Positions 1 to 4,392 of a stretch of DNA of 42,466 nucleotides are shown in pieces (the first letter of the stretch is position 1; each line of letters begins with the position of its first letter). The stretch spans positions 1 to 42,466 of the forward strand of contig JANWYD010000027.1 in the NCBI GenBank assembly GCA_025057155.1, read 5' to 3'. The notes beneath the pieces were generated by a model. That model was not told the DNA's origin, ran no database searches, and saw nothing but the letters and a program-made list of their open reading frames with translations. Source of the stretch: Chloroflexaceae bacterium. GTDB lineage: Bacteria; Chloroflexota; Chloroflexia; Chloroflexales; Chloroflexaceae. A program made the position numbers and the translations under genes.

Positions 1-2496
1 CGCCAGACGCCCCGTGGCCGCCGCCGGCGGGCCGACAGACCGGCGGCGCCCCCGCGGGCGCCGCGGCGGCGCGCTGCGCTCCACCGCGTCGGCAATGACC
101 GCCACCCGGTCCAGCCGGAAGCAGCGCTCGGCCCGCGCCGTCAGGCAGTAGGCGTGCAGGTAGGTCACCGGCCCGTGCTCCTCCAGCCGCAGCGGGCGCA
201 CCATCCGCTCCCGTGGCGTCGCATCGTGCGCCCCCTGGTACCACAGCCGCACCACCCCCCGCCGCCGCAACGCCCGGCGCAGCGTCTCGCGCAGCGCCCC
301 CGCGGGGGGTGTGGAGGTGTGGAGGTGTGGAGGTGTGGAGGTGTGGGTGTGGAGCTGTGGAGGTGTGGAGCTGTCGAGCCGTAGAGATATGCATAGGTCG
401 CCCCCCGGCTCTGCAACCGGAGCATCAGCCTGCATTGCAAGCTGATTGCCATCCGAACATGATTTCAGATCGTTATCCACCTCCACACTTCCACACCTCC
501 ACACCTCCACAATACTATCCGCCGCCAGCGCCGGGGGCAGCCCGGCCCGCAGCTTTGCCAGGGTTGCGGCCAGCGGCGGCAGGGGCGCGCCCGGGGGCGC
601 TGCGGCGGCGTAGAACCGCGCCGCCGCCAGCAACCCGGCCCGTTCTGCCGGGGTCAAGCCCTCCGGCGCCGCCCCGCTCGCCGGTCGCTCCTCCGGCGGC
701 GCGGGCACGGCCCGCCCGATCCGCGCCAGGGCCCGCGCCAGCGCCCGCTCCCGCCCTGGGGCCACCAGCGCCACCCCCGGGGCCAGTTGCGCCTCCAGCG
801 CCCGCCGCGCCGCCCGGCTCCGGCGCAGCGCCCGCGCCAGGTCCTCCGGGTCATCGCTGAGCAGCACCGTCCGCCGCGCGAGCCGCAGCCCCCCCGCTGC
901 CCGCAGCGTCTCGGCGAGGGACGCCGGCGCGCCGCCGCGCCGGGCCAGGGTGAGCGCCAGGCGCGCCGGGTCGTGTCCGCGGCTGATCGCCGCCGCCGCC
1001 TCCGCCGGTCCCAGGCGGTAGACCAGCGTTGTGGCCGTGCTCGCCTCCCAGTGCCCGAAGGCCGCCACCGCCAGCGCCTCCAGCAGGTCCGCCCGGCGCG
1101 GCAGGTGCAGGCGCCCGTCAGGGGTCCAGGTCCAGACCGAGGGGGCGGAGGTGTGGAGGTGTGGAGGTGTGGAGGTGTGGAGCTGTGGAGGTGGGGAGGT
1201 GGGGAGGTGGGGAGGTAGAGAGCTGTTGAGGTGGGAAGGTGGGGAGCTGTGGAGGTGGAGAACCGTGGAGGTGGGGAGCTGTGGAGGTGTGGTGGAGATG
1301 GGGAGTCGTCGAGACATGCACAGGTTGTCCCCCGGCTCGGCAAGCGGAACATCAGCGTGCATCGCAGGCTGCGTGCCATGCGAACATCGTGTCCGATCGG
1401 CATCCACCTCCACACCTCCACACCTCCACACCTCTACAGTTCCACTCGTCGCCCCCGGCAGCGCGCCGAGCCAGCGCAGCGGCCCTGCGCAGGCCGCCCC
1501 CCACACCGCGGCGGCCCGGCGGGCCGTCCAGGGCCCGCGGCGGGAGGGCCCGCTCAGGCAATGGGTCACGCCATCGGCGAGGGGCCCCAGAGCCGCCGCC
1601 ATACGCGCGTAGGCCCGGTCCGGCTGTTCGGCGGCCTCCGGCGGCACATGGGCAGCCCAGGCCAGCAGCCGCCGTCGCAGCGCCGGGGCGTCCAGCCCGC
1701 GCAGGCGCACCCGCAAGGCGACCAGCCAGGCATCGGGGCGCGGCAGCGCCTCCCAGGCGGCGCGCAGGCGCGCCAGGCGCTCGGCGGGCGGCAGGGCCAG
1801 CAGGCGCGGCGCAGCGGGGCCGAGGGTCAGGGCGGCCCGATCGCGGGCCAGGGCCCCCAGGGCCAGCAGCAGCGGCAGGGTCCAGTCGCAGAGCGCCGCG
1901 GCCTCGTCGGGGGCCAGGGGCTCCAGGCGCGCGGCCAGGGCGCGGCGGGCCGCGGCGGTCAGACGCCCGTCCTGGCGCGCGGGTAGGGGACGTTCAGCGG
2001 CAGCCAGGAGCAGCGCAGTAACAGCGGCCAGAACGGGCGGCTCGGCCACGGCGGGGTCGGGCGGTGGAGACGCGGGCGGAAGCGGGGCGGGCAACCAGGC
2101 GCGCACCTCGGGGGGCACAAGGTAGCGCGGGGGATGGAACGGCGCGGCAGGGCGGGGCAGGAGCAAGCCAAGGAGCAGCAGGCGCTCGCTGAGCGAGCGG
2201 GGCGCGGGGTCGGCGCGCAACTGGTTCAGAGGGCGGATGGGGCCAAAGCGGGCAGCCAGGGTTTCGGGACGGAGGCCGCCCGCGCAGGCGCGCAGGGCTT
2301 GCAGGGCGTCGCGTTCGGCGGGGTCGAGGGCCCAGTAGAGGGCGCGGAGGGCGGCGGGGCGACAGAGGGCGGCGCGGAGGCGAGCCAGGCGCTCCTCGGG
2401 CGGGCAGCGGCGGGGCAGGGAGACGCGATGGGTAGCGGCGATGAGGCGCAGCAGGGTGGGGGGCGACTGCGCGAGGGCGGCGGCCCAGCGGTTCAT
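1..2496 (-). CDS. Helicase-C-like / WYL-domain regulator, 3' end cut by window edge
   Basis: One uninterrupted frame of 832 codons runs from ATG at 2496 to the left edge with no stop, so the C-terminus is missing. GGAGGA lies six bases before the ATG. Residues about 1-340 are helical and Leu/Ala/Arg-rich. Residues about 455-580 resemble the Helicase_C_3/XPB-associated domain (VWTWTPDGRLHLPRRADLL, later VLLSDDPEDLARAL). Residues from about 735 form a WYL domain (VVRLWYQGAHDATPRERMVR, then PLRLEEHGPVTYLHAYC and CFRLDRV). WYL domains are ligand-sensing modules in transcriptional regulators, some of which control CRISPR systems. The gene is divergent from the CRISPR array and shares its upstream region. 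Oddity: two Cys- and Pro-rich segments (residues about 354-450 and 663-730) come from in-frame repeat insertions at domain junctions. A role in controlling the array is inference. Confidence 0.8.
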   Translation of the reverse strand, partial: MNRWAAALAQSPPTLLRLIAATHRVSLPRRCPPEERLARLRAALCRPAALRALYWALDPAERDALQALRACAGGLRPETLAARFGPIRPLNQLRADPAPRSLSERLLLLGLLLPRPAAPFHPPRYLVPPEVRAWLPAPLPPASPPPDPAVAEPPVLAAVTALLLAAAERPLPARQDGRLTAAARRALAARLEPLAPDEAAALCDWTLPLLLALGALARDRAALTLGPAAPRLLALPPAERLARLRAAWEALPRPDAWLVALRVRLRGLDAPALRRRLLAWAAHVPPEAAEQPDRAYARMAAALGPLADGVTHCLSGPSRRGPWTARRAAAVWGAACAGPLRWLGALPGATSGTVEVWRCGGVEVDADRTRCSHGTQPAMHADVPLAEPGDNLCMSRRLPISTTPPQLPTSTVLHLHSSPPSHLNSSLPPHLPTSPPPQLHTSTPPHLHTSAPSVWTWTPDGRLHLPRRADLLEALAVAAFGHWEASTATTLVYRLGPAEAAAAISRGHDPARLALTLARRGGAPASLAETLRAAGGLRLARRTVLLSDDPEDLARALRRSRAARRALEAQLAPGVALVAPGRERALARALARIGRAVPAPPEERPASGAAPEGLTPAERAGLLAAARFYAAAAPPGAPLPPLAATLAKLRAGLPPALAADSIVEVWRCGSVEVDNDLKSCSDGNQLAMQADAPVAEPGGDLCISLRLDSSTPPQLHTHTSTPPHLHTSTPPAGALRETLRRALRRRGVVRLWYQGAHDATPRERMVRPLRLEEHGPVTYLHAYCLTARAERCFRLDRVAVIADAVERSAPPRRPRGRRRSVGPPAAATGRLA
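308..510. repeat. In-frame inserted element, copy 2 (inverted minisatellite arms, homologous core)
   Basis: Left arm (308-380) is a GTGGAGGTGTGG-type tandem repeat. Right arm (476-510) is its inverted counterpart, CCACACCTCCAC. Between them lies a core (381-475) of the same length as, and roughly four fifths identical by eye to, the core at 1308-1402. The element adds a multiple of three bases and leaves the WYL gene open, encoding VEVWRCGSVEV at one side and LHTSTPP-type repeats at the other. It sits just before the WYL domain. Confidence 0.8.
1147..1437. repeat. In-frame inserted element, copy 1 (inverted minisatellite arms, homologous core)
   Basis: Same architecture as the element at 308-510 but with a longer, more degenerate left arm (1147-1307). 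The core is 1308-1402 and the right arm of CCTCCACACC units is 1403-1437. It is translated in frame as part of the WYL-type protein (VEVWRCGGVEVD, then Cys/Pro-containing core peptide, then PPHLHTS repeats), between the N-terminal helical region and the helicase-C-like domain. The two cores encode recognisably related peptides (both contain AEPG and LCxSxRL). Confidence 0.8.
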
Positions 2497-2498
2497 AC

Positions 2499-2527
2499 TT
2501 GTCCTCCGGCGGATGACCTGCTATACT
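2499..2527 (+). promoter_or_regulatory. Possible promoter in CRISPR leader
   Basis: TTGTCC (2499-2504) and TATACT (2522-2527) are separated by 17 bases and point toward the array, whose first repeat starts at 2655. The stretch 2497-2654 would be the leader: it abuts the intact repeats, while the degenerate repeats are at the far end. The same stretch must also carry the promoter of the divergent WYL gene. Prediction by eye only. Confidence 0.45.
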
Positions 2528-2654
2528 GTAGATATTGGGTGCATCATAGGCGCCGGGGGCCAGAAACGCAAATCGCAACAGTGACAATGGACGCTGGCCG
2601 AACCGGGCAAGCGCGCAGGAACGCCTCGCGGCGGCCCGGCCCGGGTGCGAGGGG

Positions 2655-4392
2655 CAATGCCTCACCGCCCCGCTCTGAAGGGGTTTGAAACTCCGCACCG
2701 TGAACCGTAGTCCACGGTGTACCCTGCTCCAATGCCTCACCGCCCCGCTCTGAAGGGGTTTGAAACGAAAATAGCGCCGCCTAACCCAGCCGCGTCTCCG
2801 CGGCAATGCCTCACCGCCCCGCTCTGAAGGGGTTTGAAACAAACAGATACACGAGCCACTTTTTCATATTCCCCTCCCAATGCCTCACCGCCCCGCTCTG
2901 AAGGGGTTTGAAACGCAGCGATTACCGTAGTCGACAGTTCTACACGCTAGCAATGCCTCACCGCCCCGCTCTGAAGGGGTTTGAAACATTGAGACCAATA
3001 AGGTCTCCCCGCGCCTGAACTTCGCAATGCCTCACCGCCCCGCTCTGAAGGGGTTTGAAACACCGTAGTCGACGGTCCCACATGCAAGCACGAATAGCAC
3101 AATGCCTCACCGCCCCGCTCTGAAGGGGTTTGAAACACGAGCCACTTTTTCATATTCCCCTCCTCGGGAAACAATGCCTCACCGCCCCGCTCTGAAGGGG
3201 TTTGAAACCCCCCGTGGCGACGCCATCGGGGGTTTACCTCGGCGCCAATGCCTCACCGCCCCGCTCTGAAGGGGTTTGAAACGGGTTTACCTCGGCGCAG
3301 CGATTGCCGTAGTTGATCCCCAATGCCTCACCGCCCCGCTCTGAAGGGGTTTGAAACATTCTTACCACATCCATATCCCCCTCCTTTCGGGGAATCAATG
3401 CCTCACCGCCCCGCTCTGAAGGGGTTTGAAACTCGGAGCCCCACATGCCAATGCCAGGCATGTGAGCACAATGCCTCACCGCCCCGCTCTGAAGGGGTTT
3501 GAAACGCGTCTCCGCGGCTGGTCTCGGCACACCGTGAACCATCAATGCCTCACCGCCCCGCTCTGAAGGGGTTTGAAACCATGATTAGCGCCTGCCGGTA
3601 CGGCGTGGCGTCCGCACCAATGCCTCACCGCCCCGCTCTGAAGGGGTTTGAAACCGCCCGTGGGGGGCGGCACCGGCGTGCCCGTGGGAGGCCAATGCCT
3701 CACCGCCCCGCTCTGAAGGGGTTTGAAACGCCAAAGCGGCCAAAACTGCGAATTTGAAAGTTTTCAATGCCTCACCGCCCCGCTCTGAAGGGGTTTGAAA
3801 CTGCCCTATTCGGCGACGGGAAATGCCCGACGCCGGAGCCAATGCCTCACCGCCCGCTCTGAGGGGGTTTGAAACTTATTTCAACCGGCGTCTCCGTCAC
3901 TGTTGCCGTCACCGTATGCCTCACCGCCCCGCTCTGAAGGGGTTTGAAACCGGAGAAGGACCAGCAAGAGGCGCGTACGCATAGAGCTTCAATGCCTCAC
4001 CGCCCCGCTCTGAAGGGGCTTGAAACGCGTCCCTGCATTCGACGGACAATCCTGGCGGCACTATAATGCCTCACCGCCCCGCTCTGAAGGGGTTTGAAAC
4101 GATGTAACACCCCGCCGTCATAATCAGGAGAAGGACCAGCAATGCCTCACCGCCCCGCTCTGAAGGGGTTTGAAACGTGAGGGACAAACCGGGCGGGATG
4201 ACGGTGTGAATTCAATGCCTCACCGCCCCGCTCTGAAGGGGTTTGAAACTCCCTACTGTCATATGCCCCACCCAAGAACCATAGTTCAATGCCTCACCGC
4301 CCCGCTCTGAAGGGGTTTGAAACAACCTTAGGGGTTCGCCCTCAGTCGTGAGCGCCCCAACGCCTCACCGCCCGGCTCTGACGAGGGGCAAC
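2655..4392 (+). CRISPR. CRISPR array, 24 repeats and 23 spacers, no adjacent cas genes
   Basis: A 37-bp direct repeat starts CAATGCCTCACCGCC and ends GGGGTTTGAAAC, with a CCCC/GGGG stem. Repeat starts: 2655, 2730, 2804, 2878, 2951, 3025, 3100, 3172, 3246, 3321, 3396, 3469, 3543, 3618, 3693, 3765, 3840, 3914, 3990, 4064, 4140, 4213, 4287, 4358. Spacers are 34-39 bp. Repeats at 2655-3801 are identical. Those at 3840 (one base deleted), 3914, 3990, 4064 and especially 4358 are degenerate, placing the trailer at the right and the leader at the left. The GAAAC 3' end is typical of type I/III repeats read in the direction of transcription and would leave a TTTGAAAC crRNA 5' tag. The subtype cannot be assigned because no cas gene is present. 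Many spacers overlap each other in sequence (see findings). Confidence 0.97.

Follow-up and report, generated by a model that had tools for sequence, protein, structure and literature searches.

Spacers in reverse transcriptase (RT)-linked arrays of clustered regularly interspaced short palindromic repeats (CRISPR) in Roseiflexus are said, in the work of Neri 2022 and Lee 2023, to be directed against RNA viruses and circular RNAs. Viroid-like circular RNAs carry a self-cleaving ribozyme in many, although not all, cases. For RT-linked arrays more broadly, Silas et al. described the principal source of spacers as unknown and enigmatic, with few matches among 2,054 RT-linked spacers and most of these to DNA phages or predicted prophages (PMC5513706). 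Obelisk-directed spacers have been reported, 63 of them unique, with 9 of the 63 attributed to type III systems (PMC13096302), and hot springs are known to hold riboviruses whose hosts are probably bacteria (PMC10847044). Here, we describe a CRISPR array of a Chloroflexaceae bacterium (assembly GCA_025057155.1; 5.13 Mb in 189 contigs) in which most spacers match one small gene family and the hairpin-rich element that carries it. The array lies on contig JANWYD010000027.1 (C27 in our numbering), whose 42,466 nucleotides are called the window below. The gene lies on contig JANWVB010000007.1, and the stretch of it that bears the gene is called L115; other L-numbers denote DNA stretches that were read, and G-numbers denote comparison genomes.

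At the DNA or translated level combined, 14 of the 23 window spacers (1 to 10, 12, 14, 15, and 16) match the element, including 11 of the 12 newest. Relative to the gene, 11 of these are antisense, two are sense (15 and 16), and one is mixed (8). The array and the spacers in question are as follows.

CRISPR array, 2655..4386, plus strand: 24 repeats of 37 nucleotides (CAATGCCTCACCGCCCCGCTCTGAAGGGGTTTGAAAC), the last degenerate, and 23 spacers; leader side presumably at the low coordinates
Spacer 1, 2692..2729: antisense to the gene, target strand AGYTVDYGSRCG; translated match, residues 22-29 of the L115 protein
Spacer 2, 2767..2803: antisense, RGDAAGLGGAIF; translated match, residues 35-46
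Spacer 3, 2841..2877: antisense, GGAGGGGAATATG..., with target strand GGAGGGGAATATGAAAAAGTGGCTCGTGTATCTGTTT holding the ribosome-binding site and ATG and encoding MKKWLVYLF; DNA match, L115:629-659
Spacer 4, 2915..2950: antisense, LACRTVDYGNRC; translated match, residues 18-29
Spacer 5, 2988..3024: antisense, EVQARGDLIGLN; translated match, residues 31-42
Spacer 6, 3062..3099: antisense, LFVLACGTVDYG; translated match, residues 18-26
Spacer 7, 3137..3171: antisense, ribosome-binding site and start codon; 27 bases identical to spacer 3 (same allele), L115:642-660
Spacer 8, 3209..3245: mixed, antisense AEVNP plus a 22-nucleotide hairpin core reading PRGDAIG on the other strand; DNA and translated comparison
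Spacer 9, 3283..3320: antisense, GINYGNRCAEVN; translated match, residues 23-33
Spacer 10, 3358..3395: antisense, ribosome-binding site and start codon of a different allele; DNA match, L115:647-670
Spacer 11, 3433..3468: perhaps antisense, LTCLALACGAP; resemblance by eye (LALACG), below the DNA and translated nulls
Spacer 12, 3506..3542: antisense, GSRCAETSRGD; DNA and translated matches
Spacer 14, 3655..3692: possibly antisense near the 3' end of the gene, GC-rich; DNA score 16 against a null maximum of 13.5, no translated support, the weakest of the 14
Spacer 15, 3730..3764: sense, hairpin region downstream of the gene, L115:270-304; DNA score 29
Spacer 16, 3802..3839: sense, ALFGDGKCPTPE, hairpin inside the gene; DNA and translated match, residues 44-54

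Translated matches to the L115 gene pass the 1% null for 9 of 23 window spacers and for none of the 51 and 38 spacers of two other arrays in the same genome, which served as controls (the 51-spacer array is presumably of type I-E, from its repeat). DNA matches above the 99% shuffled null number 7 of 23 in the window and 1 of 51 and 0 of 38 in the controls. An earlier note, made from the window sequence alone, had proposed that at least nine spacers encode variant pieces of one protein family in antisense. The spacers and peptides that it quoted are present in the sequence, and the set is larger than it supposed. Spacers 3, 7, and 10, covering the ribosome-binding site and ATG, and the sense spacers 15 and 16 join its list, whereas spacer 13 passed no test and spacer 11 resembles the gene by eye only. 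That note did not extend to the likely RT link, to the element with its many hairpins, or to the spacer pieces in sense or inverted orientation, all described below.

Homology among the spacers themselves also exceeds chance. At a gapless score of at least 12, 11 of the 23 spacers fall into homologous pairs, seven of them same-strand and none opposite; two letter-shuffled spacer sets gave no pairs, and the control arrays have 2 of 51 and 0 of 38 spacers in pairs. Spacers 4 and 6 differ at five of their 27 common bases, four of these at third codon positions, as had been noted before and as the spacer sequences confirm. The array repeat was found only on the window contig in a search of the whole 189-contig genome. 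We assign the leader to the low-coordinate end, given that the array closes with a degenerate repeat at its high end and that synteny puts Cas1 on the low side; the 3' end of the repeat was also used for orientation. Spacers 1 to 13 would then be the newest. Further along, spacers 18 (3951-3989) and 20 (4101-4139) have GGAGAAGGACCAG in common on the same strand; an older target was perhaps sampled twice.

To find the gene, the degenerate codons of T[VL][DN]YG.RCAE were scanned against one genome per species (84,980 species). The pattern occurs at three places: an array of Chloroflexus (G010), a frame with an internal stop in a Bacteroidales metagenome-assembled genome (MAG), and contig JANWVB010000007.1 of Patescibacteria group bacterium isolate SKYG105. 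The last bears a complete gene, with a ribosome-binding site, ATG, 57 amino acids (MKKKIAYFMGILLLGLTLACGTVNYGSRCAEPNPRGDAIGLSDALFGDGRCPTPTGR), and a stop. The protein has a hydrophobic N-terminus and a LAC-G motif; by eye, a lipobox-like motif follows the hydrophobic stretch as TLAC-G in L115 and the G010 array and as VLAC-G in spacer 6. By the lipobox rule as we assume it, the protein would be lipoprotein-like. Neither Pfam nor PHROGs gave a match to it at E values (E) of 10 or less. When alignments were selected at the DNA level alone, mismatches between gene and spacers numbered 9, 7, and 32 at codon positions 1, 2, and 3, compared to 16 each for an even spread, with spacers 3 and 7 (one allele) counted twice. 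The family therefore appears to be coding and under purifying selection while diverging. A previous count of 65/23/167 was set aside because its pairs were picked by peptide likeness, which favors third-position changes; it also omits spacer 9 and one G010 spacer.

The second array, on contig JANWYE010000118.1 (C20; identical over the 8,000 bases of L113) of Chloroflexus sp. isolate SKYG63 (G010), samples the same gene family, with AYLLGIVTLAFT, TLAFTLACGTLN, TLNYGSRCAELN, GDAAGLADALF, and ALFGDGQCPTPE on the target strand. Fifteen of its 31 spacers match L115 (1-6, 8-12, 15, 23, 27, and 29), all antisense. Ten lie above the 99% DNA null, ten pass the 1% translated null, and two match L115 at 38/38. 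The complete gene, its N-terminus and LAC-G motif, and this sampling by a second genus bear out the earlier proposal that alleles of one small lipoprotein-like gene were sampled repeatedly. The isolate names SKYG105 (the Patescibacteria MAG) and SKYG63 (the Chloroflexus MAG) suggest a common sample series. Sungai Klah hot spring, Malaysia, is abbreviated SKY in a report of Chloroflexus and Patescibacteria MAGs whose available text does not give these isolate names (PMC11071339), and the SKYG isolates may come from that spring.

The gene sits on an island of about 0.8 kb with a GC content of 0.43 to 0.56, compared to 0.27 to 0.42 in the other 200-base windows of the contig's last 5.6 kb. An 859-nucleotide stretch folds at -376 kcal/mol versus -256 for 20 shuffles (z -15), into a branched structure with no clean rod. 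Windows inside the island have fold z values of -3.3 to -7.5 on the coding strand, the next window has -3.0, and those farther out range from -2.3 to +1.9. Against codon-randomized versions, the gene alone has a fold z of -0.94, with 53 of 300 at least as low, so it carries no extra structure. A perfect 12-bp inverted repeat, ACGAGAGGCAAA, at L115:240-251 and 1000-1011 flanks most of the island in a transposon-like manner; no clear target-site duplication was seen there by eye. The hairpin inside the gene was compared by eye in five alleles: spacer 16 differs at both sides of one pair, and one G010 spacer turns a mismatch into a pair, a small hint of conserved pairing. Folded alone, the sense spacer 16 forms a strong hairpin (-18.4 kcal/mol) and the sense spacer 15 a weak one (-5.0 kcal/mol). 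An Rfam scan of L115 gave eight matches at E up to 10, with no ribozyme family among them. The possibility of a mobile-element gene, raised in the earlier note, fits a GC island in an AT-rich contig, and from this one copy we infer that the island would be a mobile element.

Spacer 8 stands apart in its orientation. Of the peptide previously read from it, AEVNPRWRRHG, the AEVNP half holds, with 16 nucleotides in common with spacer 9. The remainder reads RWRRHG; in the other alleles that span this site, RGD, NGD, or GD stands here, then two further residues and a G. The 22-nucleotide core is a near-palindrome, and flipping it gives AEVNPRGDAIG, restoring the conserved RGDAIG; the flipped spacer aligns with L115 over 20 bases with four mismatches, all at third positions. 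As read from these alignments, spacer 8 carries a hairpin-loop inversion of the kind that a polymerase such as an RT can make by intramolecular template switching. Because the inversion would break a conserved motif in a living gene, it presumably arose during spacer capture, as a possible footprint of template switching in reverse transcription. Such inversions, if repeated elsewhere, would provide a sequence-level footprint of reverse transcription in natural adaptation.

Searches for the source elsewhere were largely negative. A 33-amino-acid composite assembled from the spacer peptides had six matches in the host genome, all within the array, and self-targeting is not supported. An origin as a phage or plasmid gene is not supported either: the best E was 0.2 among phages, and on a plasmid a 40-base stretch reached 0.02. 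No convincing match to the gene was found among 50,697 phage records, in degenerate-pattern scans of viral contigs (L007, L008, L096-L099, and L120 were inspected), or, apart from the window's own, in 400 genomes of the window's phylum, three of which gave weak alignments at E of 0.001 to 0.01, all in frames of at least 350 amino acids. The L007 match, TVNYGTRCAE inside a 647-amino-acid frame, is regarded as chance because nothing around it fits. Ten of 82 related genomes match at E of 0.2; one of these (G010) proved to be an array, and the others were inspected roughly. A conserved Patescibacteria gene was rejected, as the 57-amino-acid gene occurs in 1 of 379 Patescibacteria genomes, its own, and in 0 of 378 others at E of 0.001. 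Text searches of the accessible literature, which cannot be made by sequence, turned up no report of this family or of any Chloroflexaceae array directed at it.

The adaptation genes that we associate with the array are on another contig of the host genome, as separate adjacent open reading frames.

Reverse transcriptase, contig C35 11209-12552: Pfam RVT_1 99 bits; PADLOC RT model 299 bits; RT part of the Cas1_IIIb profile 170 bits
Cas1, contig C35 12719-13717, close to the contig end: 278 bits

A single contig of the sister genome G027 holds, in order, an RT (95% identical), Cas1, segments homologous to parts of window 106-2600, and an array, of which four repeats differ from the window repeat by two to three bases and the others by more. 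Judged by this gene order, the case for the window array belonging to the RT-Cas1 module is good but indirect. A type III-D effector is encoded on contig C15 2960-12661 (Cas10, several Csm3/Cas7, Csm2, Csx10 [Cas5 III-D], and Cas6), again a different contig from the array. RT relatives occur in 24 of 41 family genomes at E of 1e-20, its own genome included. Before the RT on C35 come a Csx1-like CARF-HEPN protein and then a CARF-transmembrane protein (together at L024:879-3105), through which the type III system likely acts when ring nucleotides activate them as effectors. At window 300-380, 480-520, and 1140-1440, between Cas1 (by synteny) and the array, GGAGGTGTGGAGGTGTGG and its reverse complement recur in minisatellite-like runs. 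At L025:13700-17500 and L027:12700-16500 of the same genome, a long array, whose repeat we take to be I-E-like, lies close to a broken Cas1 match, and two more arrays lie near another Cas1.

Re-sampling is also seen in other arrays. In a survey of 14 arrays from 12 genomes, a homologous partner was found for 82 of the 383 unique spacers (48 pairs same-strand, 7 opposite); G010 C20 entered this count with 22 of its 31 spacers. The two control arrays together have 2 of 89 spacers in pairs, and for the largest arrays shuffling produced as many as four paired spacers. An RT match lies on the same contig as 12 of the 14 arrays, the window array being linked by synteny and G010 C20 by its repeat alone. 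The G008 array (L093:12600-17300) re-samples other small frames on the same strand, for example, VAAIIMMAATM and AAIIMAAMVGF or APNIRAPKGAPK and NNPAPKGAPKG. Perfect hairpin stems of 7 or more occur in 20 of its 55 spacers (1.3 expected); a control array is enriched too (6 of 51, 1.0 expected), and hairpin enrichment was therefore rejected as a mark of RT arrays. The mean hairpin z for G016 is an apparent zero-variance artefact and was disregarded. Scattered matches to L115 in other arrays, above the 99% DNA null in G008 (2/55), G007 (1/77), G015 (1/78), and the I-E control (1/51) and at the translated level in G008 (2/55), G030 (3/48), and G002 (1/19), were taken as chance. The stretches examined of G032, G034, G011, and G012 hold no array.

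Overall, we consider it probable that an RT-Cas1/type III system has recorded in this array the transcripts of a mobile element that is hypervariable and rich in hairpins. The array would serve a type III CRISPR system that adapts by means of an RT beside Cas1. RT-Cas1, with a Cas2, would take pieces of the gene's transcripts, and the newest part of the array would have grown as different alleles of one small, fast-evolving lipoprotein-like gene were captured again and again in independent events. The gene would be carried by a mobile element of about 0.8 kb that may also enter other bacteria. Mostly antisense CRISPR RNAs (crRNAs) would let the type III-D complex bind the transcript, leading to Cas10 and CARF responses and so, presumably, to immunity against the element. 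The common protein family and frame, the antisense bias, the RT/Cas1 synteny, the type III-D genes, the DNA copy, and the exact Chloroflexus protospacers all argue for this account; capture from RNA is suggested indirectly by the antisense bias, the re-sampling, and the hairpin-core inversion.

Several observations weigh on the other side. The RT and Cas1 are linked to the array by synteny from a separate contig, and just four G027 repeats are within three mismatches of the window repeat. The matching G010 array (C20) is on a different contig from that genome's RT, and the array that does share the RT contig (C609, repeat consensus different at one base) has 0 of 15 spacers matching L115. Seven of the 14 arrays lack homologous pairs, and G007 has three same-strand versus three opposite. 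Codon periodicity is not general, with 75 of 138 mismatches in the modal class versus 76.5 in simulation for all arrays. One DNA copy of the element is known; its mobility is read from GC contrast, structure, and the 12-bp inverted repeat of that copy, and the assignment of the SKYG105 contig to Patescibacteria follows the name of the database record. Strand bias alone is not proof of RNA capture, since a Thermus type III system without RT obtains an antisense bias by selection (PMC7515739) and antisense spacers fell short of an overwhelming majority when Marinomonas acquired them in the absence of interference (PMC5576922). The Marinomonas bias vanished with an RT-deleted protein (PMC5576922). 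Selection probably adds to the bias here.

The foremost alternative is that spacers come from the element's DNA and that mainly those antisense to an expressed gene survive selection, the RT being irrelevant to the pattern. In its favor, the Thermus system, which lacks an RT, takes spacers from both DNA strands and acquires its bias by selection (PMC7515739); a DNA copy of the element exists, and the matching G010 array lies off the RT contig. However, sense and inverted pieces persist (15, 16, and part of 8) though a sense crRNA cannot target mRNA, and strong re-sampling marks several RT-linked arrays and not the two other arrays of the host genome, which, however, belong to other systems. 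We regard DNA capture followed by selection as a possible but doubtful explanation. The position of the matching G010 array and the Marinomonas result raised it slightly in our estimation and slightly lowered transcript capture.

A second alternative makes the target an RNA replicon of Chloroflexaceae, viroid-like or akin to a small RNA phage with one lipoprotein, and the Patescibacteria copy a stray DNA copy. The extreme structure (the whole-stretch z and the coding-strand windows above), both polarities among the spacers, and the hypervariability would suit such a replicon, as would the lack of convincing matches in the viral contigs, phage records, and 400 phylum genomes and the existence of type III spacers against Obelisks (9 of 63; PMC13096302). 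Against it are a DNA copy with bacterial flanks, no Rfam ribozyme in L115 and no polymerase gene seen, and a gene no more structured than its codon-randomized versions, and we think it unlikely. Just as speculative is a combined picture, in which Chloroflexota mats would harbor the target as an RNA-structured replicon of a new kind, less than 1 kb long and folded along most of its length, with a single hypervariable lipoprotein. It would at times exist as DNA in Patescibacteria, and its alleles would be recorded one by one by reverse-transcribing CRISPR systems of the host, whose complementary DNA synthesis would leave hairpin inversions in the spacers.

A third alternative, quite improbable, is that Patescibacteria living on Chloroflexaceae filaments supply the target as an ordinary gene of their chromosome, with the array as immunity against epibiont RNA. 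The sole DNA copy outside arrays does lie in a Patescibacteria MAG, in an isolate series common with the Chloroflexus MAG that has the exact spacers, but a search of the other 378 Patescibacteria genomes did not find the gene at E of 0.001, and its GC-rich, structured island is unlike its flanks. The available text of a patescibacterial epibiont study holds nothing on host spacers against the epibiont (PMC13059738). Finally, a noncoding palindromic repeat with an accidental protein reading, to which the hairpins in several spacers might point (5 of 23 window spacers with stems of 6 or more, 1.8 expected), is scarcely credible given a complete open reading frame with ribosome-binding site and stop, the 9/7/32 codon bias, and peptides conserved in two genera.

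Under the preferred reading of transcript capture by an RT-Cas1/type III system, the locus offers a rare identified target for a CRISPR memory of mostly unknown source. Much of what is probably an RT-linked repertoire goes back to a single gene and its element, mostly on one strand, and a genome of another phylum holds exact protospacers for two spacers of a Chloroflexus array. Because of this tracing and the exact protospacers, the source question is now testable: the spacers can serve as probes for the element's alleles, and mat metatranscriptomes or double-stranded RNA can tell an RNA replicon from a DNA element.

Bacteriocin-release proteins and entericidins are short, with a Lys-rich start, a hydrophobic stretch, and a Cys-containing lipobox-like motif. 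The 57-amino-acid protein resembles these small lipoproteins in those features but has no Pfam or PHROGs match and a different mature part (YG.RCAE, RGD..GL, FGDG.CPTP). It is also far shorter than HsOblin-like open reading frames (mean 599 nucleotides), a separation made by length (PMC13096302). The element recalls Obelisks and viroid-like circular RNAs in being compact, highly base-paired by its predicted fold, near 0.8 to 1 kb, equipped with a small gene, and targeted by spacers from type III-type systems, and it departs from them in having a DNA copy and no ribozyme match (PMC13096302). The strong antisense bias is like that of the selected type III spacers of Thermus, where most new spacers come from one early region; however, that system has no RT, and its target is a known DNA phage (PMC7515739). 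The RT-Cas1-linked type III systems of Marinomonas mediterranea and Arthrospira platensis likewise place an RT beside cas1, use a type III effector, and hold a variable repertoire of spacers with hardly any known source (PMC5513706, PMC5576922), although here RT and Cas1 are separate adjacent open reading frames and the effector is of type III-D on another contig. Unlike the RT-linked spacers of Silas et al. (PMC5513706), many spacers here trace to one gene family and its element. Compared in this way, the system would be of a known kind, whereas, as far as we have searched, what appears new is its target and the structure of that target, the presence of a DNA copy in a different phylum, and how deeply the target was re-sampled.

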